This document shows, in pieces, positions 5,354 through 19,557 of a DNA stretch of 41,687 nt (positions are counted from its first letter, which is position 1; each line of letters opens with the position of its first letter). A program made the translations under genes and the position numbers. This DNA comes from a virus. Location: positions 1 to 41,687 of the IMG/VR virus record IMGVR_UViG_3300027805_000028; one strand, written 5' to 3'. The notes beneath the pieces are model-generated. The model was not told the origin of the DNA, made no database searches, and worked only from the letters and a program-made list of their open reading frames with translations.

Positions 5354-6106
5354 TTATCTAACTTCTGTCTTGTGTTGATCTATGACGTCCACAAGCCAGT
5401 CTGGTATACGCTCACCCTTTACCGCTCCTTTAGGAAGCAGCACTTGATATACCTTTGAGTTCTCGCCCTGAAAAGTTGCTCTTAGCTGCATTTGGGGTAT
5501 CATGCTATGAGCTTCAACATCAAACTTATCAACCTTTACAAGCTTCTCGATCTCAAGCGCTTTTTTGAAGGTTTCAGATCCTGGTGGCCATTCTTTAAAA
5601 GACGGCCTACCTATGAAGACATACAGGTCGTTTTCTTTGTCTATTTTCTTTTGAGCTGTAGTTCTGTTGTGCTTTGAAATTAGCAGCCTCAACTTTACGA
5701 CTTCTCGTTGGTGACTCGTGAGCACGCGAACTAAATCATCAACCTTTACTTTTTCAATAAAAAGCTTAGTTGCAGCTTCGCTGTCAATCGCTACAAGGGT
5801 ATTGACCAGTTGCGCCATGAAAACTCTTATACTGCTCAACGTGGCCTCGATCATCCATCTTTCACCGGTGGCGCTAAGCTCATCGTAAGCATTGATGATA
5901 GGATTTACTATAGACAGCAGATTCTCTGGGGCTGATGTACTATGTTTGTCTCTACTACGCTCAAGAATACTAGCGAGCATCTGTAGATTTTCTTCGCCTT
6001 TTTGCAGTCCTTTAACAATGTTGTCGAAGGTATCTCCACCCCAAAGAATGGAGAGGGCTTCGTAGTTAGGATTTTTTACTGCTTCGGAAAGATGGTGTAG
6101 CTTCAT
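5354..6106 (-). CDS. Late protein with capsid-targeting-like leader, unknown function
   Basis: 250 residues, starting MKLHHLSEAVK. The first eight residues match the MKxxxLxE leader shared by other late genes here and end at a possible prohead-protease site (LSE|A). The rest is mainly helical to about residue 170, then mixed. No known domain. A GATAAATA late promoter lies 23 nt upstream with no clear ribosome site. It is followed by the secreted nuclease gene. A packaged virion protein is inferred, not shown. Confidence 0.75.
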   Translation of the reverse strand: MKLHHLSEAVKNPNYEALSILWGGDTFDNIVKGLQKGEENLQMLASILERSRDKHSTSAPENLLSIVNPIINAYDELSATGERWMIEATLSSIRVFMAQLVNTLVAIDSEAATKLFIEKVKVDDLVRVLTSHQREVVKLRLLISKHNRTTAQKKIDKENDLYVFIGRPSFKEWPPGSETFKKALEIEKLVKVDKFDVEAHSMIPQMQLRATFQGENSKVYQVLLPKGAVKGERIPDWLVDVIDQHKTEVR

Positions 6107-6128
6107 TTTTAGACATTTGCTGTTTGAC

Positions 6129-6136
6129 TATTTATC
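6129..6136 (-). promoter_or_regulatory. T4-type late promoter (GATAAATA)
   Basis: Minus-strand GCTGATAAATAGTC, 23 nt before the ATG at 6106. Confidence 0.65.
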
Positions 6137-6178
6137 AGCAAACGTGTATTACTGGAACTTGGCCAAGAAGCCTGTGCT

Positions 6179-6344
6179 GGCTTTCCTAATCGAACAGTTT
6201 ATCAGCTACTCATACGGCCGATTTTGCGCTGATAGTTGCACCCTGTCAAAAGACATTATGCGTACTTTCCGCATCAAGCTATGGTTCGCGGACCGTTGCT
6301 TAAAAAGTGGAGGCGCTGTTCGATTAGGAAAGCCCTTGCGGGCT
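6179..6344 (-). ncRNA. Candidate structured RNA or attenuator closed by a perfect 19-bp stem
   Basis: Arms 6179-6197 and 6316-6334 are perfect inverse complements (19 bp). Inside are hairpins TATCAGC/GCTGATA, ATGCG/CGCAT and GGTT/GACC-type. At 6326-6344 a second hairpin (AAAGCCC...GGGCTTT, terminator-like) uses the same strand as the long stem, so the two folds exclude each other. It sits between the 73-residue gene and the late gene at 6106. The role is inferred only. Confidence 0.45.
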
Positions 6345-6353
6345 TTCACTTAA

Positions 6354-6575
6354 TTACGCTCCTTGGGCGTCGAAGCGCGTGTCTGCAGCTTGAGCAAAGT
6401 CACGCAGCAGCACAGGACGAGCCAAGAGATACTTGATGACGCCAGTGGCAAACTTCTTGCTCACTGGATCGTCTACGGCGTCGATGCCATCTGACCATGC
6501 CTGAAGCATCTCAAGCATTTCAGCGTTGCTAAGTGGAACCGTGTTTAGATTTCTGTCTGCGATTGGTAGTGCCAT
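6354..6575 (-). CDS. Small hypothetical protein
   Basis: 73 residues, helical, with a strong AAGGAGG site before the ATG. Residues 1-20 are MALPIADRNLNTVPLSNAEM, followed by a helical core containing LLARPVLLRDFAQAA. No domain recognised. Upstream are a CATAAATA late box and a 9-bp palindrome that contains an extended -10 (TGCTATCAT), suggesting both early and late expression. The stop is followed by a terminator-like hairpin. Confidence 0.75.
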   Translation of the reverse strand: MALPIADRNLNTVPLSNAEMLEMLQAWSDGIDAVDDPVSKKFATGVIKYLLARPVLLRDFAQAADTRFDAQGA

Positions 6576-6612
6576 AATAGGCCTCCTTTTAGTAGTTGTT
6601 AAGTGAATTTCT

Positions 6613-6636
6613 ATGATAGCACGTGAATGCTATCAT
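6613..6636 (-). promoter_or_regulatory. 9-bp palindrome containing an extended -10 box
   Basis: ATGATAGCA, a 6-nt loop, then TGCTATCAT. On the minus strand the second arm reads TGCTATCAT, a TGn-TATnnT promoter element. A similar palindrome precedes the 53-residue gene at 7424. Confidence 0.45.
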
Positions 6637-6641
6637 TCAGG

Positions 6642-6649
6642 TATTTATG
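6642..6649 (-). promoter_or_regulatory. T4-type late promoter (CATAAATA)
   Basis: Minus-strand ACCATAAATACC upstream of the gene at 6575. Confidence 0.5.
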
Positions 6650-6659
6650 GTGCAATCAG

Positions 6660-7097
6660 CTACGTACCAACACACACCATTACAAACTTATCTCGATCAA
6701 CCTTTGACTTGGCCCAGAGCTCAGCTGTAAAATCTACTAACCTGTGCTGTGTTTCGGCCGGAAGTAAAAAGCCTTCATCAACGAGCAAAAGCTCTATCAG
6801 CTCATTGTCACCACCGTAGCTATGATAGCTGAGATTGTGAGCGCTAAAAGCTCTAACCCCATGGGCTCGTCTCAAGTGATCGGTCATCTGAGAATTGTGA
6901 CACACTATCAGGCTCGGGTGTTTAGCCGCAAGCTCAACAATTGCTGTAGTTTTGCCCGACCTTCTTGGTAACCCCAGCTTAATGGTTCTCATCTCTGAGA
7001 TCCACTGCGCGGTGGAAACATGAATCCCATTATCAGGGACAAAGTTCTTCCTGGATTCTTTTATCAAGATTGACAAAAACAGCGCGGTTGGATTCAT
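6660..7097 (-). CDS. P-loop NTPase, short helicase-like protein
   Basis: 145 residues from the ATG at 7097. Walker A is GLPRRSGKTT (residues ~43-52) and Walker B is LLLVDEG (~104-110). The region between them (SLIVCHNSQM) resembles motif Ia of small phage helicases. It is too short for a complete helicase, so it may bind a partner or act as a compact ATPase. The gene begins 12 nt after the CCA end of tRNA-Ser(GGA) and has no clear ribosome site, so it may be translated from the processed tRNA-cluster transcript. Confidence 0.7.
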   Translation of the reverse strand: MNPTALFLSILIKESRKNFVPDNGIHVSTAQWISEMRTIKLGLPRRSGKTTAIVELAAKHPSLIVCHNSQMTDHLRRAHGVRAFSAHNLSYHSYGGDNELIELLLVDEGFLLPAETQHRLVDFTAELWAKSKVDRDKFVMVCVGT

Positions 7098-7109
7098 GCA
7101 GCACAAAGT

Positions 7110-7201
7110 TGGCGGTGACGGCGAGATTCGAACTCGCGGCCAGGTTTCCCCAGCTCCACCTTTCCAGGGTGGTGTAATAAACCGGACTCTACCACGTCAC
7201 C
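7110..7201 (-). tRNA. tRNA-Ser(GGA)
   Basis: Acceptor GGTGACG/CGTCACC, G73, encoded CCA, anticodon loop CTGGAAA, long variable arm, T-loop TTCGAAT. Reads UCC/UCU. Confidence 0.93.
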
Positions 7202-7262
7202 AAAATTAGCTGGAGCCGTCCTTAGACGGCTCCGTAACTGTTCCTACGCTTGGTAGGTCAGC

Positions 7263-7424
7263 TTAAGCTGTTGCCTGCCCGTAACCAAACAGAGTACGGG
7301 TAGGGATCTTCACGGTCTCAAAAGCTACACGCTTGCTCGGCTTGGTGCTTAGCTTGACGTAGCGACCAGTCTTGGTGTCGCGAGCAACTTGTTGAGTGAT
7401 GGTTTTGGTTCGAATGCGTGCCAT
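7263..7424 (-). CDS. Small basic protein, 53 residues
   Basis: Not a shadow frame: an AAAAGGAG site lies 9 nt before the ATG. The product (MARIRTKTITQQVARDTKTG...) is rich in Lys, Arg and Thr, with an acidic-poor C-terminus ending GYGQATA. Its size and charge suggest a nucleic-acid- or ribosome-binding peptide, but no family is recognised. A palindrome overlapping an extended -10 lies about 45 nt upstream. Confidence 0.7.
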   Translation of the reverse strand: MARIRTKTITQQVARDTKTGRYVKLSTKPSKRVAFETVKIPTRTLFGYGQATA

Positions 7425-7466
7425 TTATTTTCTCCTTTTAGGTTAGCCTGGGTAGTTATTCCCAGT

Positions 7467-7482
7467 GTGATAATAGTATCAC
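7467..7482 (-). promoter_or_regulatory. Palindrome GTGATA-N4-TATCAC over an extended -10
   Basis: Minus strand contains TGATACTAT (TGn-TAnnnT). It matches the TGATA/TATCA palindrome before the gene at 6575 and may be a shared operator. Confidence 0.4.
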
Positions 7483-7524
7483 AGCAGAAACTAACAGCAT
7501 CCTGTTTTTTGATTGATGTTCCTG

Positions 7525-7611
7525 CGGAAAGCAATGGAATCGAACCATCCTCTGTTCATCACAGAGGGCCAAGCTTTCGAAACTTGTTACGCACCTTGCG
7601 TGCTGCTTTCC
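7525..7611 (-). tRNA. tRNA-Ser(CGA)
   Basis: Acceptor GGAAAGC/GCTTTCC, anticodon loop TTCGAAA (CGA), long variable arm, T-loop TTCGATT. CCA is not encoded (GCAGG follows). Its 5' 25 nt overlap the 3' end of the NADAR coding sequence. Confidence 0.9.
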
Positions 7612-8141
7612 CTAATCTTATCCCTGATCAGCATTAGCACCTGACCTAGCATGTTCTGCCCTTTGCCATCACAGACACCCCAGAACGTGTCGTTCCAGGT
7701 GTTGGTCTCCTCAAGATAGGCGCCGCCTGTTTCAAGCAGCCAGGTTCGCAGTGGTTCCTGCTGGAACTTCTGGAGGTTGACTTCATACATGACCTCGACC
7801 TTGATTTCATCCCAATCTGGTCGGGGTGGTCTGGACCTGCCAGCCTTCATCGCGTCGCGGGGATGATGGTAGCGAGCGATCTCAGCTCTGAATTCTGGAT
7901 CAAGGTGCTTAGCTGCCTGGTAGGCGTGCTCAGTGGTTCGATACTCCTCACCATTGCACTTCACCTTGGTGTAGTGAAAGTTGGAGAGCCATCGGTATGG
8001 TCCGAAGAAACCCTTGATCTCCGCTAGAGGTTTAGGTGCTAGCGAATGCTCAATGGCAATCAATGCATTGCGGGGGTCAAACTGGTCACTGCCATTGACT
8101 CGCCTGAGAAACTCATCCATCTTCGGATTTCTGTCTCTCAT
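7587..8141 (-). CDS. NADAR family (YbiA-like, DUF1768) ADP-ribose N-glycosidase
   Basis: 184 residues. Family hallmarks are present: FFGPYRWLSNF (~45-55), YRTTEHAYQAAK (~67-78), WDEIKVEVMYEVNLQKF (~110-126), ETNTWNDTFWGV and GxNMLGxxLM near the end. NADAR proteins cleave N-glycosidic bonds of ADP-ribosylated substrates, and some remove ADP-ribose from DNA guanine. In a phage this could reverse DNA or nucleotide ADP-ribosylation by host defences. It is coupled to the Cys-rich gene upstream by a 4-nt overlap. The last codons (…STQGA) lie inside tRNA-Ser(CGA). Confidence 0.88.
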   Translation of the reverse strand: MRDRNPKMDEFLRRVNGSDQFDPRNALIAIEHSLAPKPLAEIKGFFGPYRWLSNFHYTKVKCNGEEYRTTEHAYQAAKHLDPEFRAEIARYHHPRDAMKAGRSRPPRPDWDEIKVEVMYEVNLQKFQQEPLRTWLLETGGAYLEETNTWNDTFWGVCDGKGQNMLGQVLMLIRDKIRESSTQGA

Positions 8142-8437
8142 TGTCTATCTGTAAGAGGCTGCTTGTTGTCACGGTTTCTACCAATGTGGTATCCGTCGCA
8201 GCGCATACACTTGTAAGGGTTGTAGTGGAAGTTGTTCTTCCGTTTCATGGCCTCAGCCGCCATGATCGCTGACTCTTTTGTTCGGTACTCGACTTTTGGT
8301 TTACCGCTACCTTGATTGACATGGGAGTTGAGGTGAAACAGACCCCATGCGTTTCGGGTGATGAAGAAGTTGCGGATGAACCGCTTAACAGGAAGCTGGT
8401 CGCGCAGCGCCAGTATAATGTTCCGAATCTTCATCAC
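8138..8437 (-). CDS. Small zinc-ribbon-like phage protein
   Basis: 99 residues. The C-terminal half carries KESAIMAAEAMKRKN...YKCMRCDGYHIGR, a pattern common in small phage proteins: a helix, then CxxC and a His pair probably binding zinc. The N-terminus is basic (MMKIRNIILALRDQ). AAGAGG precedes the double ATG. The function is unknown. It forms a two-gene unit with NADAR. Confidence 0.7.
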   Translation of the reverse strand: MMKIRNIILALRDQLPVKRFIRNFFITRNAWGLFHLNSHVNQGSGKPKVEYRTKESAIMAAEAMKRKNNFHYNPYKCMRCDGYHIGRNRDNKQPLTDRQ

Positions 8438-8448
8438 AGCCTCTTGAT

Positions 8449-8524
8449 TGGCTCCGGTCCCAGGATTCGAACCTGGCTTCGGGGATTAACAGTCCCTTGC
8501 CCACACCTAGTTTGCTTGACCGGA
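8449..8524 (-). tRNA. tRNA-Asn(GTT)
   Basis: Acceptor TCCGGTC/GACCGGA, G73, CCA encoded, loop CTGTTAA, T-loop TTCGAAT. Confidence 0.92.
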
Positions 8525-8535
8525 ACGAATTCGTA

Positions 8536-8620
8536 TGGTGCGTGTGAGAGGACTCGAACCTCCACCCCTTTCGAGACCAGAACCTAAATCTGGCGCGTAT
8601 ACCAATTTCGCCACACACGC
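8536..8620 (-). tRNA. tRNA-Leu(TAG)
   Basis: Acceptor GCGTGTG/CACACGC, A73, CCA encoded, stem CCAGA/TCTGG with loop TTTAGGT, long variable arm. Confidence 0.93.
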
Positions 8621-8623
8621 AAT

Positions 8624-8947
8624 GTTCACTCACTGACTTCCAACGCTGGACCATTTCAGGACCAGTTCCCCGGCCAGGGCTGCGATTTCACCTCTCTGGC
8701 TGGCCGACCAGGCTAGTCCCTTCAGAATCCATCGGGACAAAGGTTTGTTCGCTCTTCGCGCCGATTTCCAATCGACACGTTAGTTGTCAGTGACTGAACA
8801 CTTTCCAAAGACTCCAACTAGGTGCGGAGTCGGAGATTGATCAACTGGCGCCGGCCTTGATCAGTTGTTCCGAGTCGAACGGAACCGTTCTTTTTCCGAT
8901 AAGAAGATAACCAACATCCAATCGGTTAGAATCTTTGGAAGGTGTTC
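8624..8947 (-). other. 384-nt gene-free spacer in the tRNA cluster with two stem-closed elements
   Basis: No ORF or complete tRNA is seen. Arms 8624-8637 and 8786-8799 pair (13 of 14). Arms 8796-8811 and 8932-8947 pair (15 of 16 plus one G-U). The two stems share GAAC at 8796-8799, so they compete. Inside the second element is a T-arm-like hairpin (TTCCG, loop TTCGACT, CGGAA) with no surrounding tRNA body. Confidence 0.45.
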
Positions 8948-9004
8948 ATGCTGTAATTATATGCTATCTGAGATCTGGTTTAAACATTTAACCTGAAATA
9001 TTTG

Positions 9005-9081
9005 TGGTGGGACCGACAGGATTTGAACCTGCAACCTGCCCCTTATAAGGAGGCTGCTCTAACCAATTGAGCTACAGTCCC
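9005..9081 (-). tRNA. tRNA-Ile(TAT)
   Basis: Acceptor GGGACTG/CGGTCCC, A73, CCA encoded, stem GCCTC/GGGGC with loop CTTATAA. Reads the rare AUA codon. Confidence 0.9.
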
Positions 9082-9086
9082 AACAC

Positions 9087-9161
9087 TGGCCTGCCCGCCA
9101 GGATTTGAACCTGGGATAAGAGCTTAGAAGGCTCCTGTGATATCCATTTCACCACGGGCAG
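9087..9161 (-). tRNA. tRNA-Arg(TCT)
   Basis: Acceptor CTGCCCG/CGGGCAG, G73, CCA encoded, stem GGAGC/GCTCT with loop CTTCTAA. Confidence 0.92.
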
Positions 9162-9194
9162 AGAAACCTATACTATTCGCATTTTTAGTGAAAG

Positions 9195-9280
9195 TGGTGC
9201 GGGTGGCGGGACTCGAACCCGCATGGAGTTTATCCGGGAGATTTTAAGTCTCCTGCCTATACCAATTCGGCTACACCCGC
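9195..9280 (-). tRNA. tRNA-Leu(TAA)
   Basis: Acceptor GCGGGTG/CACCCGC, A73, CCA encoded, stem GGAGA/TCTCC with loop CTTAAAA, long variable arm. Confidence 0.93.
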
Positions 9281-9299
9281 TTGTTAACTGATGAAGCCA

Positions 9300-9641
9300 T
9301 TATAACACAGAAAACAAGGAGCGTACAATAGTTAGCGCTTCATCAGAAAAAACAACTGCTGCAGCGCCTAGAACCGTAACAATGAAATCGATAAAATCTA
9401 CTCCATGGGCCTTTGGTTTACCCTGCTTCACTAGCTGTTCATTTCTGTAGTAATCAACAGCTTCTTTGGCGAAAGCTGCCACGGTCACAACGGCTAAACC
9501 TAGCATATCGTGCCCAAGCAACCAAAATGGAACTGCGCCAACCGCACCAACAACAATGTGGGCAAGCTTATCCTTAGGGAGGAACTTCCAGTCTGGCATT
9601 GCTTGAATAATTTTTGCGGCAAGGGCGTAGAGCTTTTCCAT
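9300..9641 (-). CDS. Small polytopic membrane protein
   Basis: 113 residues. I chose the second ATG (9641) because AAAGGAG stands 8 nt before it; the first ATG is too close. Hydrophobic segments lie at about residues 29-47, 48-63 and 83-105. The pattern DKLAHIVVG ... KEAVDYY ... DFIDFIV resembles small membrane proteins with conserved D-K-x-x-H and K-E-x-x-D positions found in phages and bacteria. The role is unknown; a lysis or membrane-modifying role is possible. It is driven by an AATAAATA late promoter. Confidence 0.75.
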   Translation of the reverse strand: MEKLYALAAKIIQAMPDWKFLPKDKLAHIVVGAVGAVPFWLLGHDMLGLAVVTVAAFAKEAVDYYRNEQLVKQGKPKAHGVDFIDFIVTVLGAAAVVFSDEALTIVRSLFSVL

Positions 9642-9665
9642 GGACATTCTCCTTTAGTGTCCATG

Positions 9666-9673
9666 TATTTATT
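9666..9673 (-). promoter_or_regulatory. T4-type late promoter (AATAAATA)
   Basis: Starts 3 nt after the CCA end of tRNA-Thr(GGT), and the ATG of the membrane protein is 24 nt further on. Confidence 0.65.
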
Positions 9674-9676
9674 AGA

Positions 9677-9752
9677 TGGTGCTGCTGTCGGGATTCGAAC
9701 CCGAGACCTCCGCCTTACCAAGACGGTGCTCTACCGACTGAGCTACAGCAGC
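9677..9752 (-). tRNA. tRNA-Thr(GGT)
   Basis: Acceptor GCTGCTG/CAGCAGC, A73, CCA encoded, loop TTGGTAA, canonical D- and T-arms. Confidence 0.94.
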
Positions 9753-9764
9753 CAAATAGTCTCG

Positions 9765-10046
9765 TTAGGTTTGAACTTCAAGAAGCTTGTCAACAGAAAC
9801 TTCATCTTCCTCATCAGGAAGCGGGTCTTTTGGAATCTTTTTCAGCCAGCTCTGTGGCAGATGAGCTCTTCGAACTACATCACCACCAACTACCGGCATT
9901 GGTCTGTCTGCTTCGACGAGCCACATCGGGCCAAATTCATCATGAATGCCGTCCATGCTGATACAGGTTACGATCTTGCCAACTGCCTTGTTTGAATAGC
10001 TCCTCAGGACAATTGCCAGATCACCTGGCTCAAGGTTATCACTCAT
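9765..10046 (-). CDS. Small phage protein with SH3-like start (GDLAIVLRS)
   Basis: 93 residues. MSDNLEPGDLAIVLRSYSNKAVGKIV and a later VVRRAHLPQSWLKKI match a widespread family of short phage proteins with an SH3/KOW-type barrel and no assigned function. The C-terminal 20 residues are acidic (PDEEDEVSVDK). It is embedded between tRNA genes and read with them. Confidence 0.75.
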   Translation of the reverse strand: MSDNLEPGDLAIVLRSYSNKAVGKIVTCISMDGIHDEFGPMWLVEADRPMPVVGGDVVRRAHLPQSWLKKIPKDPLPDEEDEVSVDKLLEVQT

Positions 10047-10070
10047 GCTCTTAAGCTCCTAAAAATTGTG

Positions 10071-10142
10071 TCAGGGCACCGAGAGTTGAACTCGGACTGC
10101 TAGTCTCCCGAACTAACCGGCTCCCGCACGCCTCCTACCCTG
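10071..10142 (-). tRNA. tRNA-Pro(GGG), position 33 is C
   Basis: Acceptor CAGGGTA/TGCCCTG, A73, no encoded CCA. The stem TTAGT/ACTAG holds loop TCGGGAG, so the usual U33 is C. T-loop TTCAACT. Same backbone as the Pro tRNAs at 13.6-14.0 kb. Confidence 0.75.
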
Positions 10143-10264
10143 TTGTTGAATTGACTGGGCTGCCGCTCACGTCCTCTTACTCTACAGCAGCGTGACCCTT
10201 GATGCACGTACCGAAGAACGATCCGCCGTGCAGGGCTCCCTCGCTAAAGGCATCGGTCAATCTA

Positions 10265-10354
10265 TGGTATCCTCGGTCGGACTCGAACCGACATCCCCTA
10301 AAAGCGGGGCCCGCGCTCTCAACGCGGTGTGTTTACCAATTTCACCACGAGGAC
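10265..10354 (-). tRNA. tRNA-Leu(GAG)
   Basis: Acceptor GTCCTCG/CGAGGAT, A73, CCA encoded, stem CCGCG/CGCGG with loop TTGAGAG, long variable arm. Confidence 0.92.
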
Positions 10355-10364
10355 ATTGTTCAGC

Positions 10365-10445
10365 GTCGTCAGCTGGGATTCGAACCCTACTGCCAGCATC
10401 AGGCAGCGTAACCAAACCCAGGTGCTCTAGGGACTAGCTGACGAC
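10365..10445 (-). tRNA. tRNA-like gene of uncertain identity
   Basis: A perfect 9-bp terminal stem (GTCGTCAGC/GCTGACGAC) and a T-loop TTCGAAT with an imperfect stem are clear. A D-arm lacks GG. The only 5-bp internal hairpin, CTGCC/GGCAG, has loop TGATGCT, which would give anticodon ATG with G33, or may be a long variable arm. It abuts the stop codon of the kinase-like gene. It may be degenerate. Confidence 0.45.
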
Positions 10446-11030
10446 TTATAGAACTGGATCAGCGAAGACTAACTTGGGTCCACGCATCATTACGTTGGAA
10501 TTTGAAACGTCGATATCTTGCTGCCGAAACGAAGATAGAAACTTTGCAAACACACGAATGTCGTTGTCACTGGAGTGTTCTGCTATGACTTCCCAATGTG
10601 GCTTCGTTATATCATCGAAGGTTGTTGGGTTGTCTAATGGTTTCACGCGCTTGAAATGTGGTGTATCTACCGTCGAAATAACATATCTGACTGCTTTCAC
10701 CACGTCTTCGTTTGTTGCACGTTCAAGCTTTTCCAACGTGATAAGCCAAACTGAAACATCTTGCTTTCGGAACCTTGAGTCTAAGATGATACCTTTGATG
10801 CTTCTAACTTTTGGAAGCCAAGGGTTGTTCGTGTGTCTAGCACAGAACATTCGAAGGTATGCAAGATAGGCCGTGTCTTCTTTGTACAAGACCTTCAGAA
10901 CAGAGCTCTCATCACCCGGTATTGAGAACACCAACGAGTTCATACCACGCCCGATTTTTCGGTGGCCATTATTCTCTAGATGACGTAGGTAATCATCAAG
11001 AGTCTCTTCGAACAGGTGGCGTAATTTCAT
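10446..11030 (-). CDS. Protein-kinase-like phage protein with capsid-targeting-like leader
   Basis: 194 residues. The leader is MKLRHLFE (possible cleavage LFE|E). A kinase/APH-like core follows: glycine-rich IGRGMNSLVFS (~26-36), candidate ATP-site lysine in SVLKVLY (~46), catalytic-loop-like DIDVSNSNVM with its D...N pair (~172-181), and DFG-equivalent VFADP (~188-192). The chain ends right after that motif, so the C-lobe is very small. Similar short kinase-like proteins with the same leader style occur in T4-like phages. It overlaps the ART-like gene upstream by 4 nt. It may modify host proteins on entry (inference). Confidence 0.7.
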   Translation of the reverse strand: MKLRHLFEETLDDYLRHLENNGHRKIGRGMNSLVFSIPGDESSVLKVLYKEDTAYLAYLRMFCARHTNNPWLPKVRSIKGIILDSRFRKQDVSVWLITLEKLERATNEDVVKAVRYVISTVDTPHFKRVKPLDNPTTFDDITKPHWEVIAEHSSDNDIRVFAKFLSSFRQQDIDVSNSNVMMRGPKLVFADPVL

Positions 11031-11827
11031 GTTTGGCCTAAAGATTCGCTCTTAAAGTTCGAACCTGGCATCTGGAACATCTTTAATCCAGCTTTTCTGG
11101 CAAGTTTCCTGAACTTATCAACTTGCTCATCATTCAATTTCGGGTTCAGCAGCAAACCCACAGCTCCTAGATTCTTGAGCGGAATTGAACTTTTGTCAGT
11201 GAGCACAACCTCTTCGTATTCTGAAGTCTGATTCATCTTTCTTGGAATAAGCTTATTCGCCTCTCTCACAAACTGATTGAAGCGATCAAGTGCAGCTTTC
11301 TTGTTTTCTGGCGTTAGCTCAATTTGCTTCTGGTTACCGAGGAGAACCCATCGGTTGAAAAAACCGAACGCTGGCATTCCAAGTGATCTAGCTGCTTTCT
11401 TCAAGATCTCTACATTTGTTTCAGTGAAACCCGTGGTGGTAGTGAATCTAGAGTTGACGGTTGCCGAGGTATTGCTCTTGAGGAAAGCGACTAAGTTAGC
11501 CCTCATCTCATTGAATTTGCCGGTAATATCTGACACTTGAGACACGGATCTGATCTTGAAACGCTGTTTGATAACGTCAGCGTCAAATACTAGGCTTCCT
11601 GCTTTCCCAATACCGTCAGTAGCTTGACCATCGTCGTCTTTACCTGACAGGGTATATCGCCAACTTCTGGAAAACGAGATCGAGTACTTGTCTGACATGT
11701 TTCTGTCTGTGTTCTTCTTGTTAGCGTTCATTTGACCGCTTGTCAGAATTGCAGTTAGTCCTTCTACGTCTGAGCCGTGGTATAGATAACCACGACTAGC
11801 CGCTTCAAATAGTTGATTGACTTTCAT
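11027..11827 (-). CDS. ADP-ribosyltransferase-like protein with capsid-targeting-like leader
   Basis: 266 residues from the ATG at 11827, chosen because AAGGAA precedes it; the ORF can extend 7 codons into the promoter region. The leader is MKVNQLFE|A. ART-like landmarks: GYLYHGSD (~13-20, first strand), SISFSRSW (~49-56, the S-T-S-like strand) and SEYEEVVL (~205, in place of ExE). This matches the phage YHG...SxSR...EEVV family. The T4 relative in concept is Alt, an injected ART processed by the prohead protease. First gene of a late operon with the kinase-like gene. Confidence 0.7.
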   Translation of the reverse strand: MKVNQLFEAASRGYLYHGSDVEGLTAILTSGQMNANKKNTDRNMSDKYSISFSRSWRYTLSGKDDDGQATDGIGKAGSLVFDADVIKQRFKIRSVSQVSDITGKFNEMRANLVAFLKSNTSATVNSRFTTTTGFTETNVEILKKAARSLGMPAFGFFNRWVLLGNQKQIELTPENKKAALDRFNQFVREANKLIPRKMNQTSEYEEVVLTDKSSIPLKNLGAVGLLLNPKLNDEQVDKFRKLARKAGLKMFQMPGSNFKSESLGQT

Positions 11828-13844: not shown

Positions 13845-13849
13845 GTTCG

Positions 13850-13924: not shown

Positions 13925-13931
13925 TTGTTGG

Positions 13932-14156: not shown

Positions 14157-14163
14157 ATCTTGT

Positions 14164-14230: not shown

Positions 14231-14236
14231 ATTGTC

Positions 14237-14312
14237 TGGTGGAGGTAGACGGGATCGAACCGACGACCCCCTGCTTGCAAAGCAGGTGCTCTCCCAGCTG
14301 AGCTATACCCCC
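14237..14312 (-). tRNA. tRNA-Ala(TGC)
   Basis: Acceptor GGGGGTA/TACCTCC (G3-U70-type wobble present), A73, CCA encoded, stem CCTGC/GCAGG with loop TTTGCAA. Confidence 0.94.
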
Positions 14313-14326
14313 GTAATTCTGTAATC

Positions 14327-14403
14327 TGGTAGGCCGGGTCGGGCTCGAACCGACGACTAACCGATTATGAGTCGGCTACTCTGACCAACTGAGTTACCGG
14401 CCC
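14327..14403 (-). tRNA. tRNA(CAT), elongator Met or lysidine-type Ile2
   Basis: Acceptor GGGCCGG/CCGGCCT, A73, CCA encoded, loop CTCATAA. The segment CGACTCATAATCGGTTAGTCG resembles bacterial tRNA-Ile2 (k2CAU) more than elongator Met, so it may read AUA after modification. Confidence 0.85.
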
Positions 14404-14459
14404 AATTCTCTGAGGACGACATTTCGGCTTCAATTGCCTGGTGTGGGACCCTCATGTTT

Positions 14460-14544
14460 TGGTGCGACCGAGAGGACTCGAACCTCCACCCCTTACAGGA
14501 CCAGCACCTCAAGCTGGCGCGGCTACCAATTACGCCACGGTCGC
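14460..14544 (-). tRNA. tRNA-Leu(GAG), second copy
   Basis: Acceptor GCGACCG/CGGTCGC, A73, CCA encoded, stem CCAGC/GCTGG with loop TTGAGGT, long variable arm. Confidence 0.93.
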
Positions 14545-14609
14545 ATGAAAACTAGGACCGACGATGTAGTCAGCGCAGGGCCCATTGCCTCTACACCGCC
14601 GGTACATTC

Positions 14610-14685
14610 TGGTGGACAAGAAGGGATTCGAACCCTCGACCTCTGCCGTGCGAAAGCAGCGCTCTCCCAACTGAGCTACATGCCC
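14610..14685 (-). tRNA. tRNA-Ala(CGC)
   Basis: Acceptor GGGCATG/CTTGTCC with G3-U70 and one mismatch, A73, CCA encoded, loop TTCGCAC. Confidence 0.85.
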
Positions 14686-14761
14686 TAAATTCTTGAGGTG
14701 AATTTCACACCTCTCCTGATGTAGCCGAGGTTACGCGTCTCCTGCTACCAAGATCCTCAGG

Positions 14762-15094
14762 TTAGACCATGTTTGGAATGAACTTCTTGGCGATGGCTAC
14801 CAGCTCAGCAGCAGTTGAGCCTGTCGTCCGAACTGAAGAGTCCCAGTAGACTTTGTCGCCTTCTTTTCTACCAACCATCGTCTTCCACTTAGTGTCAGAC
14901 TTTGGTTCGAAGGTGACCATCTGGACATCTCCATCATTCTTCGTCGATGCTTGAATCTGTACCGAATTTTCAGGCTTCATGATCTTGCACTTGAAGCCAG
15001 CCTTTTCAAGGGCTGCACAAACTTCAGCAGGTGAAGCCTTTTGGGTTACAGCCTCGGTGAGGCCAGCCAGCTGGCGAAGTCGTTGGAGTTCCAT
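14762..15094 (-). CDS. Late protein with gp23-like cleavage leader, unknown function
   Basis: 110 residues. The N-terminus MELQRLRQLAGLTEAVTQ ends in LTE|A, the same residues as the T4 major-capsid cleavage site. The body alternates short strands and helices (KASPAEVCAALEKAGFKCKI...QMVTFEPKSDTKWKTMVGR), like a small alpha/beta domain. No family recognised. The ATG follows TAGGAAC, and an AATAAATA late promoter lies about 30 nt upstream. It stands alone within the tRNA cluster. Confidence 0.75.
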   Translation of the reverse strand: MELQRLRQLAGLTEAVTQKASPAEVCAALEKAGFKCKIMKPENSVQIQASTKNDGDVQMVTFEPKSDTKWKTMVGRKEGDKVYWDSSVRTTGSTAAELVAIAKKFIPNMV

Positions 15095-15124
15095 GACGTT
15101 CCTATAAAAGTAGTGAAGACCTCA

Positions 15125-15132
15125 TATTTATT
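15125..15132 (-). promoter_or_regulatory. T4-type late promoter (AATAAATA)
   Basis: Overlaps the last base of the tRNA-Cys CCA end (CCAATAAATATG) and precedes the gene at 15094. Confidence 0.65.
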
Positions 15133-15205
15133 GGAGTGCACTCCGGGAGTTGAACCCAGCTCTCTGGCTTTGCAGGCCAGCACATAACCGCTCTGTCAAG
15201 TGCAC
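15132..15205 (-). tRNA. tRNA-Cys(GCA)
   Basis: Acceptor GTGCACT/AGTGCAC, U73 as expected for Cys, CCA encoded, stem CTGGC/GCCAG with loop CTGCAAA. Confidence 0.92.
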
Positions 15206-15219
15206 ATTGAATTGGTTTT

Positions 15220-15337
15220 GGTCCATTGGGCAGGCCTCGAACCTGCATCTCCTACTCTACCGCCTACGCATCCAGACAGGATGGAGGGATTCTAACCCTC
15301 ATATTTCGGCGTTTAACCCCTTCAACTACCACGGACC
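15220..15337 (-). pseudogene. Degenerate or chimeric tRNA with two T-arms
   Basis: The ends pair like an acceptor (GGTCCGT/ATGGACC, 7 bp). Inside are two T-arm-like hairpins (GAGGG-TTAGAAT-CCCTC and GCAGG-TTCGAGG-CCTGC) and no convincing anticodon arm. A 9-bp hairpin GCACTGTAG/CTACAGTGC lies next to it at 15363-15387. Confidence 0.4.
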
Positions 15338-15398
15338 TTGGAAGGAGCGACCTCCCAATCTTGCACTGTAGCTGCAGTCTACAGTGCTTGAGCTGTTC

Positions 15399-15489
15399 TG
15401 GCGGGAAGTGTGGGAGTCGAACCCACTGGGCTGTTCATCACAACCCTACACCTTAGCAGGGTGCTGCATTACCGTCCTGCCCACTTCCC
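15399..15489 (-). tRNA. tRNA-Ser(GCT)
   Basis: Acceptor GGGAAGT/ACTTCCC, G73, CCA encoded, stem CACC/GGTG with loop CTGCTAA, long variable arm. Confidence 0.92.
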
Positions 15490-15558
15490 ATTTTGCAGTC
15501 CTTCCGTAGTTGACTGCGCGCTCACGTTATAAGCTACGGTGTTAGCGTGAGAATTGTT

Positions 15559-15634
15559 TGGTGCTGACTGTCGGATTCGAACTGACGACCTTCGCCTTAC
15601 AAGGGCGCTGCTCTACCAACTGAGCTAAGCCAGC
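15559..15634 (-). tRNA. tRNA-Thr(TGT)
   Basis: Acceptor GCTGGCT/AGTCAGC, A73, CCA encoded, loop CTTGTAA. Confidence 0.93.
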
Positions 15635-15639
15635 ATGTT

Positions 15640-15729
15640 TGGCGGGCAGGGTGGGATTCGAACCCACGGGGCCATTTCTGACCCGCTGGTTTTCAAGACC
15701 AGTCTATTAAACCGCTCTAGCACCTGCCC
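15640..15729 (-). tRNA. tRNA-Ser(TGA)
   Basis: Acceptor GGGCAGG/CCTGCCC, G73, CCA encoded, stem CTGGT/ACCAG with loop CTTGAAA, long variable arm. Confidence 0.93.
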
Positions 15730-15879
15730 ATTATTCTGCCGAGGCTTGCACTCGGACCATCGTCTTCACGACTTCGACCAGCGGTTCACTTACGCTACGC
15801 ACGGTGGCGTAAGGCTCTGTGTCGTGCTAGGAGACCAACGCTGTAGTGCCGTGCTGACCAGCGAGGTCTGTCAGTATTT

Positions 15880-15973
15880 TGGTGGACGCCGAGGGATTCC
15901 CACCCTCATTGGTGACTCCATGCTATTGAAGCCTTTCACACCGGCAGCAGGTTATCTCCCGTATGGTGCGTCC
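15880..15973 (-). tRNA. tRNA-like class II gene, T-loop TGGGAAT, isotype uncertain
   Basis: Acceptor GGACGC/GCGTCC, A73 and encoded CCA, a long variable hairpin CTTC/GGAG and T-stem GAGGG/CCCTC are clear. The T-loop lacks TTC, and the anticodon stem has only three pairs (GCC/GGC) around a 9-nt loop. Possibly decayed. Confidence 0.4.
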
Positions 15974-15985
15974 ATGTTTTGTCTA

Positions 15986-16104
15986 ATGAGAAGGCGGCTG
16001 ATAGGACCGTCGACGTATTCAGCTGGCACAATGGAAGGACCATTACCATCCTTCATTATGGGTGGCTCTGTTACCAACCTATTCTCCCCCTTCGGGCTTC
16101 TCAT
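15986..16104 (-). repeat. Inter-tRNA structured element, copy 2
   Basis: Second copy of the element at 13725-13844, with the same closing stem ATGAGAAG/CTTCTCAT. It is followed on the plus strand by a truncated Pro tRNA, as if element plus tRNA were duplicated together. Confidence 0.7.
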
Positions 16105-16109
16105 GTTCA

Positions 16110-16146
16110 TGGTCAGAGATTTGAACTCGGACTACAACGACCTATG
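16110..16146 (-). pseudogene. Truncated tRNA-Pro (3' third only)
   Basis: CCA end, an acceptor-like CTCTGACC and T-arm CGAG-TTCAAAT-CT resemble the Pro tRNAs at 13.9 kb. The sequence then departs before an anticodon arm. Confidence 0.55.
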
Positions 16147-16182
16147 AATTATTAGGTGCGGTATATTTCATTCACTACTGCT

Positions 16183-16258
16183 TGGTGGATCATGTCGGAC
16201 TCGAACCGACGCAGCCCCCACTGATGAGAGCGACCATTCCCAACATGTCTAATGACCC
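16183..16258 (-). tRNA. tRNA of uncertain anticodon (TCA or CAT register)
   Basis: Acceptor GGGTCAT/ATGATCC, A73, CCA encoded, D-arm GAC/GTC with GGG, T-arm GTCGG/CCGAC with loop TTCGAGT. The anticodon stem GCTCT/GGGGC leaves an 8-nt loop CATCAGTG, so the reading triplet is ambiguous. Confidence 0.55.
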
Positions 16259-16265
16259 ATGTTTT

Positions 16266-16341
16266 TGGTGGAGGCCGGGAGAATCGAACTCCTCTAGTCA
16301 CAGAGCTTGCAAGGCCCCGCCGGATCCCAATCACTGCCCCC
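16266..16341 (-). tRNA. tRNA-Ala(TGC), second copy
   Basis: Acceptor GGGGGC/GCCTCC with G3-U70, A73, CCA encoded, stem GGGGC/GCTCT with loop CTTGCAA. Confidence 0.85.
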
Positions 16342-16350
16342 GTAATTTTT

Positions 16351-16459
16351 ACCATTTCAAAGCGCACTAGCATCAGACAGACCATCTTAGACGCCCGCAC
16401 ACTAGATAGATGGTCTCCACTGTGGCTTGGGCGCTCTGATAAGTGCGCTTTGAAATGGT
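16351..16459 (-). other. Spacer element closed by an 18-bp perfect stem that covers the tRNA-Tyr 3' end
   Basis: Arms 16351-16368 and 16442-16459 are exact inverse complements. Nested inside is AGACCATCT/AGATGGTCT (9 bp). The right arm includes the CCA of tRNA-Tyr. The stem begins with the same ACCATTTCAAAGC as the element at 16553. Confidence 0.65.
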
Positions 16460-16542
16460 GGGTGTGGGTGGATTCGAACCACCTAAGCCATAAGGCAACG
16501 GATTTACAGTCCGCCGAGACACTCCAACGTCCCCGCACACCC
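16456..16542 (-). tRNA. tRNA-Tyr(GTA)
   Basis: Acceptor GGGTGTG/CACACCC, A73, CCA encoded, stem GCGGA/TCCGT with loop CTGTAAA, class II variable arm. Confidence 0.92.
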
Positions 16543-16552
16543 AAAGAATTTT

Positions 16553-16683
16553 ACCATTTCAAAGCATCCAAACGGGATAGGACTTGAACCTATCATTACC
16601 CGCTACCGGAATCTAACCGCTTCCAACTGGAATCTTCCAGTTGTGCACCACAGTGCTGACTCGCTTAGATGCTTTGAAATGGT
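16553..16683 (-). other. Spacer element closed by a 16-bp perfect stem that covers the tRNA-Val 3' end; contains a tRNA-like T-arm
   Basis: Arms 16553-16568 and 16668-16683 pair exactly. The right arm includes the CCA of tRNA-Val. Inside are ATAGG-TTCAAGT-CCTAT (a T-arm) and CAACTGG/CCAGTTG, but no assignable anticodon. Confidence 0.6.
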
Positions 16684-16754
16684 GGGAAGTGACGGGATCG
16701 AACCGCCGACCAACGCCTTGTAAGGGCGCCGCTCTACCGCTGAGCTAACTTCCC
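16680..16754 (-). tRNA. tRNA-Val(TAC)
   Basis: Acceptor GGGAAGT/ACTTCCC, A73, CCA encoded, stem GCGCC/GGCGT with loop CTTACAA. First tRNA of the cluster after its promoter. Confidence 0.93.
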
Positions 16755-16912
16755 GAAGAACGACGTTGATTTCTAACGTGACAGTTGGTCGTCAGACCTC
16801 TTACACGCTAGTTGCCAACGTCGTGTTGGCAAGTTCCAGATTGTATAAAGAACATCCTCTTTCGAGGTTGTAGATGAAGCATCCTTGTTGCTTTATCTAC
16901 TGCGTTGAAAGC
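16755..16912 (-). other. Leader of the tRNA-cluster transcript
   Basis: No gene. Contains hairpin TTGCCAA/TTGGCAA and a longer-range pairing ACGACGTTG/CAACGTCGT just before tRNA-Val, likely involved in folding or processing the primary transcript. Confidence 0.4.
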
Positions 16913-16942
16913 ATTATACAACACTTTCAACCTTTTGTACAA
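16913..16942 (-). promoter_or_regulatory. Sigma70-like promoter of the tRNA cluster
   Basis: Minus strand TTGTAC, 18 nt, TATAAT (-10 at 16913-16918). A second candidate, TTGTGT-16-TATGAT, lies just upstream at 17019-17046. Confidence 0.7.
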
Positions 16943-17079
16943 CATCTTTTGAAGAGAATTTTCGGTTTAGTCTCAAGGACTTTAGCGAACTCTTTTCTTC
17001 AGAAGATGTTGCTATCATATCATACTTTTAAGCTTTGTACACACAAATTTTGTAGCAAACTCAAAAATTGTAACATCTA

Positions 17080-17121
17080 AAACGACCGAAGGCAGCCTTT
17101 GTTTCCTCTGGCTGCCTTCGG
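17080..17121 (-). terminator. Strong Rho-independent terminator
   Basis: 12-bp stem CCGAAGGCAGCC/GGCTGCCTTCGG followed on the minus strand by TCGTTTT. Confidence 0.85.
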
Positions 17122-17275
17122 GGTAGTCTTGAATTTGACTTTATCCCTGAGCAGCCTCCTTGGAGGGATACGCTGGGGCAGCTGACACTAAGCTACCCAG
17201 CCCCGATGGGCTAGAGAGTCTTGTTGTCGATGCTATCAGCGTGAACATTGAAGGAGGTTTCCTAAGTTTGAAGTA
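17086..17275 (-). ncRNA. Candidate late-expressed structured RNA, ~190 nt
   Basis: It lies between a perfect TATAAATA late promoter (17282) and a strong terminator (17086-17121). Predicted hairpins: AGCCC/GGGCT, GCTGGG...AGCT/AGCT...CCCAGC, and ATCCCT/AGGGAT enclosing CCTC/GAGG. A 35-codon ORF (MFTLIASTTRLSS...) exists, but its AGGA site is 11 nt away and overlaps the hairpins, so coding is doubtful. Confidence 0.55.
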
Positions 17276-17281
17276 TGAACT

Positions 17282-17289
17282 TATTTATA
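17282..17289 (-). promoter_or_regulatory. Perfect T4-type late promoter (TATAAATA)
   Basis: Exact consensus on the minus strand, directed at the candidate structured RNA. Confidence 0.75.
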
Positions 17290-17323
17290 TGAAACCGGGA
17301 AAATGAAGAATGTCAGGTTAAAT

Positions 17324-17722
17324 TCAATCGCGCTTTACACTCATGATTTCCTTCAACTCCTCAAGCATGTAGTCAGGATAATCGATGTCAATAACAGTGG
17401 CAAAGTGCTCGCTTTTTGAAAGGCCTCCAGGTTCAGGCTTGAGTTTCTTGGCATAGAAGTAGCTCACGACGTCCTTGTTGCGGCCCTTGGAGTGCTTTTC
17501 AGGGGGAACAAGGCGGTGCTTACCAGTGACATCGGTGCCCTTGATGAAGTCGCAAAAAGATGGGCCAACATTGAAAGCCCAGCCGTCTTTGAACAGCTCA
17601 GCGGCAAACTTTTGCAGGTGCTCCTTGTCAGTCTTCTTGCAGGGGCATCGGTCATTTAAGTAGTCAAGAAACTGCATCACCTGCTGACCACGGGTATTTT
17701 CAAATAGTTCAACAACCTTCAT
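17324..17722 (-). CDS. Leader-bearing late protein, tandem paralogue 3
   Basis: 132 residues. Leader MKVVELFE|N, then TRGQQVMQFLDYLNDR, a helix shared with the two upstream genes, followed by [A/G]xELFKDGWxF and a strand-rich C-terminus ending DYMLEELKEIMSVKRD. CPC (~26-28) is unique to this copy. It overlaps the upstream gene by 4 nt. No known domain. It is the last gene before the late promoter at 17282, which drives the next unit. Confidence 0.75.
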   Translation of the reverse strand: MKVVELFENTRGQQVMQFLDYLNDRCPCKKTDKEHLQKFAAELFKDGWAFNVGPSFCDFIKGTDVTGKHRLVPPEKHSKGRNKDVVSYFYAKKLKPEPGGLSKSEHFATVIDIDYPDYMLEELKEIMSVKRD

Positions 17723-18099
17723 TTCACTTTCCTCGCTGCCTTCTTCATCAGGTCCAGAAAGACCGGCACCGCGTACCTTTCAATCTCTTTAACGCTCATC
17801 AGCCTGTCGTACTCGAACTTTTCACTGTTGTTCCAGTTGTAGTAGTTAACTCTTATATCTCCACGCTTAATGGCTTCCTTGTTGTTGAATATAGGAAGGT
17901 AGATCTCATACACACCACCCTCTTCAGGCAACTTGTGAAAGAGGGTGTCCTCATAGGTGAAGCCCTCTTTGAAAAGCTCAATCCCAATCTTCTTGTAGCG
18001 CTCAGCGGAAACAGGTGAGACCTCTGCCATCCTGTTGACATAGTCATTGAAGGCTAAGACCTGAGCTCCACGACCCTCAAAAAGCTGATATACCTTCAT
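17719..18099 (-). CDS. Leader-bearing late protein, tandem paralogue 2
   Basis: 126 residues. Leader MKVYQLFE|G, then RGAQVLAFNDYVNRM and GIELFKEGFTY, aligned with both neighbours without gaps over about 50 residues. It overlaps both neighbours by 4 nt (ATGA), so all three paralogues are translated as one coupled unit. The function is unknown; the leader suggests packaging in the head. Confidence 0.75.
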   Translation of the reverse strand: MKVYQLFEGRGAQVLAFNDYVNRMAEVSPVSAERYKKIGIELFKEGFTYEDTLFHKLPEEGGVYEIYLPIFNNKEAIKRGDIRVNYYNWNNSEKFEYDRLMSVKEIERYAVPVFLDLMKKAARKVK

Positions 18100-18941
18100 G
18101 ATGCTTTAGCCTTTGCCTCTAGAATTTCCAAATACGCGTCTATTCCTACATCTACAATGAATTCAGCATTAATGAACTTATTGTGTCGATGCGTCAGGGT
18201 TCCACTTCTAACGGCGCAAGATGTCAAAATTAGTGATCCATTAAGTAGATGTTTTTCTTCATCATCTGGAAAATCGAAGTTAAAAACTGCTTCACCAATA
18301 CTTTTTTCAAATGTTGAAAATTGTGGTTCAAACTTGAATCCGCTCTTGAACAGCAGCGCACCTACTTTCTTGTACTGCTCTTGAGCGCCTGTTGAAATAT
18401 CACCAATTTTTGAGATATAGTCAGCAAACTGCAGAACCTGTTGGCCACGGCCTTCTGTGATTGGTTGTTTCCTCCTTAGCTGATCTTCAGTGTAGTCAAA
18501 TATGACAGGATCCAAATTGGGCGACTTGAAGACCCAAAGATCCTGCTTAAGGCCGAGCGTCGCAAGTGCTTTTTCGCCTGCAGCACGTGCTCCTTTTTCA
18601 GATAGACCGATAGCAAGAATTGGTAAAGTTCGCTTGCCCAGAAACTGCTGCGGCCATTCGAACGCGTCATTGGTCTCATTGCCTCTAACAAACACCACCG
18701 CGTTAGTACCGCTGAAAGCTTTAACGGAAACCGGATAGCTGACCGACGCAGTCCTATGCAAGAACTTAATAGCTGGGCTTTCAAGCGCGCTCTGAGCTTC
18801 TTGAAACGTTTTAACTATCCAAAGACCATTGATTGCACTTAGCCATAGAGTCCCCTTAGGTACTGCAACCCAGGAATATGGAAACATGTCTGAGCGTCTT
18901 TTAGAAAGTAGATCTGACGCGGTAATTTCTGATAGCAGCAT
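18096..18941 (-). CDS. Two-part late protein with an internal leader-like cleavage site, paralogue 1
   Basis: 281 residues. The first ~165 residues (MLLSEITASD...) form an alpha/beta domain with no recognised family. At ~169-173 comes QPITEGRGQQVLQF, which aligns with the N-terminus of the next two genes just after their LFE. The second half (~173-281) is a third copy of their domain. PITE|G looks like an internal prohead-protease site, as if a leader-domain gene was fused behind another. First gene of the trio, 4-nt overlap downstream. Confidence 0.75.
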   Translation of the reverse strand: MLLSEITASDLLSKRRSDMFPYSWVAVPKGTLWLSAINGLWIVKTFQEAQSALESPAIKFLHRTASVSYPVSVKAFSGTNAVVFVRGNETNDAFEWPQQFLGKRTLPILAIGLSEKGARAAGEKALATLGLKQDLWVFKSPNLDPVIFDYTEDQLRRKQPITEGRGQQVLQFADYISKIGDISTGAQEQYKKVGALLFKSGFKFEPQFSTFEKSIGEAVFNFDFPDDEEKHLLNGSLILTSCAVRSGTLTHRHNKFINAEFIVDVGIDAYLEILEAKAKAS

Positions 18942-18945
18942 TTGA

Positions 18946-19557
18946 TTACAGCTTTATTACGTCCATGCGATCAATGGTGCTAGACACGCCCTTGAAAAAT
19001 CCCTTTTCGGCTTCATATTGCACTTCATACATTGGCTTCATGCCGTCGTAGCCGCAGGAGATCAGCAGACCAAACATTCCTACTCTGCTGAACTCTCGCG
19101 CCGCAATGCGAAACGCGAGCTCGTGCTCCTCATTTTCGTAGTCAAAGACCTCCCCAGTTTCTTCCTCAAACAACCTTTCAAATACTTGACCAAAATCCTC
19201 ATCGTCAACCCACGCGTCATAACCAAGAAGAATACTATCATATCTGACATCGTAAAACACCGCGACAAGATTGGCTTCGCTTATTGGAACCATTTCGCTG
19301 TAGGTCGATGACAGCTTAAAATCTACCTCCACATCTACCATTTTTTTCTTAACTTTTTCCGCGAAATAGTGTTTGAGACCATCAATGGCTGGGCCAAATC
19401 CACTCTCATCATAGATGTCAAAACCTCTAAACTTGAGATAGTGCGGCTTCCCAATAAGGCGGTCGACCATTTTTCTCCAGGTATTGGGAAAGGTTTTTGC
19501 TAGAACCCGCAGCTCTCCGGGCGCAGCATCTTCATCAAAGATTTCTTGTAGAAGCAT
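18946..19557 (-). CDS. Acidic late protein with leader-like N-terminus
   Basis: 203 residues starting MLLQEIFDE|DAAPGELRVL; the N-terminus resembles the Alt-type leader of T4 (MELITELFDE-like). The middle is strongly acidic (YDAWVDDEDFGQVFERLFEEETGEVFDYENEEHE, described by residues ~125-160). No domain recognised. The ATG has an AAGGA site that lies in the loop of a 7-bp hairpin, GGACTAT/ATAGTCC, just behind the late promoter. Confidence 0.75.
   Translation of the reverse strand: MLLQEIFDEDAAPGELRVLAKTFPNTWRKMVDRLIGKPHYLKFRGFDIYDESGFGPAIDGLKHYFAEKVKKKMVDVEVDFKLSSTYSEMVPISEANLVAVFYDVRYDSILLGYDAWVDDEDFGQVFERLFEEETGEVFDYENEEHELAFRIAAREFSRVGMFGLLISCGYDGMKPMYEVQYEAEKGFFKGVSSTIDRMDVIKL

Follow-up and report, generated by a model that had tools for sequence, protein, structure and literature searches.

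The window analysed here is the entire record of the virus IMGVR_UViG_3300027805_000028, 41,687 bases with densely packed genes on the minus strand, and it raises the question of why proteins with little else in common should begin with much the same few residues. An earlier note on this DNA had picked out seven late proteins with a short N-terminal leader ending in [LI]xE and had read them as head-packaged, injected proteins. In our judgement, the leaders are very probably capsid-targeting propeptides of the T4 type, removed by the phage's own S77 prohead protease.

All seven leaders exist, each at an ATG start on the minus strand. The leader set is in fact wider: ten minus-strand open reading frames (ORFs) of the window have [LI]xE inside their first 14 residues (1291, 1628, 5354, 10446, 11027, 14762, 17324, 17719, 18096 and 18946, named by their lower coordinate), which adds 18096 (MLLSE), 1628 (MLVRDILLQE) and 1291 (MKLLE, GTG start) and extends the set to 1291-2827. 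Since these ten were picked for the leader itself, the tests of its meaning rest on other data. The strict pattern M[KR][LVI]xxLxE is found at 5 of the 185 ATG starts in the window, against 0.03 expected from codon shuffles, 200 of which gave one match at most. Across all 77 called genes, the looser criterion, an [LI]xE whose Glu falls at residues 5-12, shows no significant enrichment (9 against 6.4 expected, P=0.2); in this count the start of 5354 was overlooked by the start-picker.

Through a conserved neighbour we reached two collinear contigs (G001, 106 kb; G004, 86 kb), and through two further proteins six related records of 257-350 kb (G008-G013); genes in these relatives were called by a simple script. 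Strict leaders number 7 in G001 (0.07 expected), 8 in G008 (0.15), 11 in G009 (0.20), 25 in G010 (0.17), 9 in G011 (0.15), 4 in G012 (0.23) and 3 in G013 (0.15), counts that include paralogs and are not independent events. The looser motif is 1.7-2.5-fold above background in all six large relatives (observed/expected 84/38.0, 81/39.7, 86/34.3, 79/41.0, 67/35.7 and 45/26.5 for G008 to G013; P 6e-4 to 9e-14) and 3.8-fold in G001 (51/13.4). In the six large relatives, neither [LI]xD nor [AGST]xE exceeds background at these residues, and [LI]xK and [LI]xQ stay largely at background, apart from mild excesses in G010 (K P=0.02, Q P=0.003) and G011 (K P=0.02, Q P=0.04). The motif search of the whole proteome, which had been proposed as a check, bears out the strict form and the enrichment in relatives, and not the looser count in the window.

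A shared N-terminus could also be a feature of translation initiation or expression in late genes, an A-rich start context with no targeting role, and 68 of 74 strict leaders do have the Lys codons AAA or AAG at position 2. We regard this as extremely unlikely. All six Leu codons are used at Leu-6 of the 74 leaders, so that selection appears to act on the peptide, and the motif spans residues 5-10, beyond positions 2-3. Furthermore, M[KR] by itself does not separate the virion proteins of the related phage PA5oct (15/93) from its other proteins (54/295), and the strict pattern is missing (0 at ATG starts) from the unrelated contig G002, which had been considered as a relative, was rejected for its short match and unrelated gene content, and was kept as a negative control.

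The machinery expected of a T4-type propeptide is present in the relatives. An S77 protease (PF03420) scores above the cut-off in all six records of 257-350 kb (84.7-99.5 bits), and the proteases retain GELNHP and GVSSRG when aligned with T4 gp21 and have an LxE near their own N-terminus; the G008 protease shares 41-50% identity with its counterparts in Atu_ph07, PA5oct and XacN1 (XacN1 50%, PA5oct 47%). A gp23-type capsid protein (PF07068) is likewise found in 6/6 (279-312 bits, best match), and in every one the propeptide ends in LxE/TA immediately ahead of the conserved mature part; T4 gp23 reads LTE/AE at this point (a slash marks the putative cut). Leader ORFs lie inside or adjoin the portal-protease-scaffold-capsid cluster in G008, G010 and G011. 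As a separate observation, three phages of 634-642 kb (LR756502, LR756504 and LR745206) have weak S77 matches inside open frames of ~700-770 residues, which suggests that these huge phages may carry a fused prohead protease.

T4 gp21 cuts after L/I-X-E; its propeptides are as short as 7 residues in Alt and as long as 65 in gp23, and for IPIII the initial 10 residues are enough for packaging (PMC9026906; this and the other PMC papers are cited from the parts available). T4 IPI-III and Alt have the same features as the proteins described here: a short N-terminal propeptide ending in [LI]xE, diverse mature parts, an S77 protease and a gp23 propeptide ending in LxE. The leaders themselves resemble the N-termini of T4 Alt (MELITELFDEDTT, MELITELFDED) and gp24 (MAKINELLREST, MAKINELLRES). 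Alt comes close to MLLQEIFDED of 18946 (18946..19557, minus strand, 203 residues, MLLQEIFDE/DAAP, leader codons 19531-19557), a conserved leader protein of the lineage with homologs in G001, G008, G010, G011 and G012. In an AlphaFold model of the single-domain protein 1291 (pLDDT, predicted local distance difference test, 87.1), residues 1-6 score below 50, the disordered leader lying outside the modelled fold. The likeness to T4 capsid targeting has accordingly held up on most counts, namely the S77 protease and the capsid LxE/TA in 6/6, the Glu-specific enrichment, the Alt and gp24 resemblance and the disordered leader.

In the mechanism that we propose, proteins that begin with M[KR][LV]xxLxE, with MKLxE[IL] or with a longer leader whose end is LxE would be made late in infection. 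By its leader the protein would dock on the prohead's scaffold core, the S77 protease would cut after [LI]xE to free the mature protein inside the head, and the mature proteins would leave the head with the DNA into the host. The tag would be modular, being carried by several unrelated, fast-changing families, and tandem-domain ORFs would keep the cut motif between domains, so that one precursor would probably yield several cargo proteins. For the window phage, we infer docking, cutting, packaging and injection.

The modularity of the tag is seen most clearly in the mature parts. A MAFFT alignment of 97 leader proteins chosen for having a leader (8 of them window proteins, the others from G001, G008, G010 and G011) has the consensus MKLxELxE and, beyond the leader, only one majority residue. 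Profile matches among the 97 are to phrog_15752 kinase-like (4), ART-PolyVal (2), Amidoligase_2 (1), DUF3175 (2) and Acb1 (1); most mature parts have no profile assignment, and the T4 Alt and IP families are absent among the listed Pfam and PHROG matches. Common descent only, in which one leader gene was duplicated repeatedly and its N-terminus inherited, would account for the clear paralog arrays at window 17324/17719/18096, G001 54-60 kb and Atu_ph07 39-51 kb. As an explanation of the whole set we find it very unlikely: the 97 proteins keep the N-terminus over remainders nearly without consensus, kinase-, ADP-ribosyltransferase (ART)- and amidoligase-like members among them. The claim that the proteins are otherwise unrelated is only partly right, since 17324 and 17719 are paralogs of each other and of the C-terminal portion of 18096. 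The proteins may form an injected effector arsenal; profile support is limited to the kinase-like 10446 and, in relatives, one ART-like and one amidoligase-like member.

The second feature of the lineage is the arrangement of these domains, as arrays of single genes and as fused chains. G001 has about ten single-domain leader genes in a row at 54-60 kb and more at 24-29, 32-37 and 76-79 kb. In the window, ORF 1628 (1628..2827, minus strand, 399 residues) has its MLVRDILLQE leader followed by four tandem copies of a ~100-residue domain, and [LI]xE precedes copies 2, 3 and 4 (in KINE, KINE and KLVE); the linkers KINEEQENP, KINEDASDP and KLVEEEQFEP align with the leaders of single-domain genes. 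One such gene is the GTG-started 1291 (1291..1641, minus strand, 116 residues, MKLLE/IVGD), a single copy of the same domain. ORF 18096 (18096..18941, minus strand, 281 residues) consists of an MLLSE leader, domain 1, a seam and domain 2, and corresponds to two proteins coded by separate leader genes in G001, domain 1 being G001 77737-78186. The seam, QPITE/GRGQQVLQF at residue 164, has ITE exactly at the junction. Domain 2 is paralogous to 17719 and 17324 and, from the Glu on, is 51% identical to 17719 (MKVYQLFE/GRGAQVLAF); G001 76677 has an internal seam of its own, APIRE/GLGSDVLAF. Over nine fused ORFs, [LI]xE lies within 14 residues upstream of 10 of 15 junctions against 1.5 expected (13 against 2.1 if V is allowed), the junctions being set by domain starts read from alignments.

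On this sequence evidence, it looks as if multi-domain precursors are cut at domain junctions into separate cargo proteins. The fuller picture of a 'string of beads', in which polyproteins would enter the prohead by one leader and the head protease would cut the [LI]xE junctions into products ready for injection, we put forward tentatively, at slightly less than an even chance. Joining or splitting ORFs would in that case be almost neutral, so that arrays of one-domain genes and polyproteins could interconvert, which would explain why two G001 genes equal one window ORF with the cut motif at the seam.

Data on virion proteins come from two related phages. Atu_ph07 has 131 virion proteins, of which CDS (coding sequences) 31-76 supply 29, only two of them predicted to be structural (PMC6102473), a figure that is the total for the 46-CDS cluster. 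Inside this cluster, CDS 53-63 are 11 tandem leader genes (MF403008 39484-50592), homologous to G008 leader proteins and beginning, for example, MRWEQLTE, MKWHQLTE or MRWHQLIE; the CDS numbers were obtained by feature counting, and gp2 and gp4-5 of the paper fit them. When the leader was searched for as a DNA pattern, the Atu_ph07 genome gave 43 matches against 14 for the reversed control, and 15 of the 43 fall within CDS 31-76. Most genes of the array also have a YRG(M/I) motif and are ADP-ribosyltransferase-like by motif only. For PA5oct, which is more distant and has fewer leaders, 93 CDS marked by electrospray ionization tandem mass spectrometry were set against 295 CDS that lack the mark and have at least ~60 residues; unmarked CDS below that length were excluded. 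Neither [LI]xE at residues 5-12 (16/93 virion against 40/295 others, P=0.24) nor a pattern fixed beforehand (5/93 against 8/295, P=0.18) differs significantly; a pattern written after seeing the list does (8/93 against 4/295, P=0.002, post hoc). Some virion proteins of PA5oct do carry such leaders, and the comparison is no clean confirmation. Head packaging as originally claimed has thus gained indirect experimental support from related phages, the Atu_ph07 cluster and PA5oct, and none from the window phage.

The two null comparisons in PA5oct weigh against the propeptide reading, and other points join them. The relative G004 has 0 strict leaders and only weak enrichment of [LI]xE at residues 5-12 (18/11.0), and record G015 has none (6/7.4). 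ORF 356 (356..1294, minus strand), with three domains probably of the same family as those of 1628, has no recognisable leader and no [LI]xE at either of its two junctions, and is a counter-example to the precursor scheme. As far as seen, the window itself has no protease or capsid gene, and an S77 search in the fragments G001 and G004 found none; because of this, we infer the protease of the window phage from its relatives. Finally, many members have only MKLxE[IV]S with no second LxE. This last point would suit a leader that docks the protein to the head or another virion part and stays uncut, its LxE being part of a scaffold-binding amphipathic helix, as would the separability of targeting and processing residues in T4 (PMC9026906). 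We think such uncut docking unlikely: Glu is enriched to a degree that Asp, Lys and Gln do not match in that position, the capsid protein and the protease bear LxE sites of the cut type, and LxE also occurs at internal junctions, where a docking N-terminus is not needed. Removal of the leader by the prohead protease is the reading that we retain.

The sequence NATAAATA, a T4-late-like box, occurs 12 times on the coding strand of the window and once on the opposite strand, against 2.0 expected per strand. The statement that most leader genes lie behind TATAAATA-type promoters proved too strong. Literal TATAAATA has only two coding-strand occurrences, and [AG]ATAAATA precedes 4 of the 10 leader ORFs by no more than 70 nucleotides (5354, 11027, 14762 and 18946, being 34 nucleotides upstream of 18946). 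Each of 10446, 17324, 17719, 18096 and 1291 overlaps or directly adjoins a leader ORF upstream of it.

The remaining leader ORFs of the window also lie on the minus strand. ORF 17719 (17719..18099, 126 residues, MKVYQLFE/GRGAQVL) overlaps 18096 and is in turn overlapped by 17324 (17324..17722, 132 residues, MKVVELFE/NTRGQQV); in G004, a 17324 homolog at 11966-12352 apparently has no leader, its likely start being MGSQLSDFF, and relatives have leader and domain together. ORF 14762 (14762..15094, 110 residues) has the longer leader MELQRLRQLAGLTE, followed by AVTQ. A still longer leader of ~50-60 residues with an EQSTG stretch, ending in VNE or VSE, is found at G010 136568-137272, G001 24858-25520 and G004 67390-68169; it is common to a kinase-like protein and unrelated helical-looking proteins and looks like a longer propeptide module. 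ORF 11027 (11027..11827, 266 residues, MKVNQLFE/AASR) starts at 11827, and an in-frame start upstream at 11848 would add 7 residues. The protein-kinase-like ORF 10446 (10446..11030, 194 residues, MKLRHLFE/ETLD) matches phrog_15752 with E=1.2e-5 and has leader-bearing homologs in G011. ORF 5354 (5354..6106, 250 residues, MKLHHLSE/AVKN) is 39% identical to a G001 leader protein beginning MRVAQLLE, and adjoins a DNA/RNA non-specific endonuclease at 4544-5350 (PF01223, 137 bits) with a secretion-signal-like N-terminus, also kept in G001 and G004.

Several identities for mature parts were rejected. Acb1, an inhibitor of the cyclic oligonucleotide-based antiphage signalling system (CBASS), was dropped as packaged cargo (G011 111546-111971, 79 bits): its N-terminus is like that of ordinary Acb1, T4's included, and Acb1 lacks a leader-type LxE in 4/5 relatives. 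Window 11027 has a YHG motif only, with no ADP-ribosyltransferase profile match and an alignment-free AlphaFold pLDDT of 36.8, and a PDB profile search with the G008 YRG trio gave nothing credible for that fold. Foldseek gave no confident fold for the tandem domain (best E 0.034 among viral structures and 0.058 in the PDB, with ribosomal-protein matches). Nothing useful came from a viral scan with 11027, tblastn of 1628, 18096 and 18946 in named phages, a search for family A2 in 21 further records, or PDB profile searches with A9 and A12.

As the relatives measure 257-350 kb, the window must be part of a larger genome: it is a 41.7-kb piece of a tRNA-rich jumbo phage lineage, with a full genome probably above 300 kb. 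It encodes 30 transfer RNA (tRNA) genes, sited at 7110-16754, 25150-25225 and 26021-26417, and a transfer-messenger RNA (tmRNA). ARAGORN reads one of the former as tRNA-Pyl with a CTA anticodon, a possible amber suppressor, and marks the tmRNA call with an asterisk; both calls are found again in G001. When positions 5001-20000 were compared with 50,697 named phage records, the only near match in DNA was a short, trivial one to BcepSauron at a tRNA (15587-15644, mostly tRNA-Thr). At 27967-31106, a 487-residue ORF and the adjoining ORF 29961-31106 are kept in G001 at 52% and 46%; the pair resembles a salvage pathway for nicotinamide adenine dinucleotide, with a putative nicotinamide phosphoribosyltransferase and a putative NadM-type adenylyltransferase. 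At 36333-37550 lies an RNA ligase of the phrog_968 family, whose closest named relative is from a cyanophage.

The principle is known from T4; its scale, with many proteins, and the architecture of multi-domain chains are new. T4 has a handful of tagged proteins (PMC9026906), whereas here about ten occur within 41.7 kb and individual relatives have over 20, together with paralog arrays and fused multi-domain precursors. Polyvalent proteins likewise combine several effector domains, ART domains included, in a single chain for which embedding in the virion and injection are predicted (PMC5512222, PMC9503650, PMC7824862). In the parts available, they are large multi-domain proteins, whereas here candidate protease sites divide the domains, which also occur as single leader genes. 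In phiKZ and SPN3US, a prohead protease cuts after xxE and strips the propeptides of packaged proteins; SPN3US uses A-x-E and mostly propeptides of 20 to 254 residues (PMC10052503), in contrast to [LI]xE and ~5-14 residues here. Agrobacterium phage Atu_ph07, with its 11-gene array, Pseudomonas phage PA5oct, Xanthomonas phage XacN1 and Ralstonia phage RsoM2USA are also jumbo phages with T4-like heads, but have other leader families, and the leaders go unmentioned in the available parts of PMC6102473 and PMC8504454. For this lineage, neither arrays of leader genes nor precursors divided by LxE are described in the literature searched, including the available parts of PMC7824862, PMC9503650 and PMC13282480; most subscription papers lay outside the search.

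If the polyprotein reading is true, these phages have a processed precursor design not described in that literature. The propeptide reading predicts new N-termini directly after the Glu. Jumbo phage genomes code mostly for proteins of unknown role, and a head-packaging tag would sort tens of genes per genome into a class 'delivered at time zero', the place where T4 keeps its anti-restriction and host-takeover proteins.

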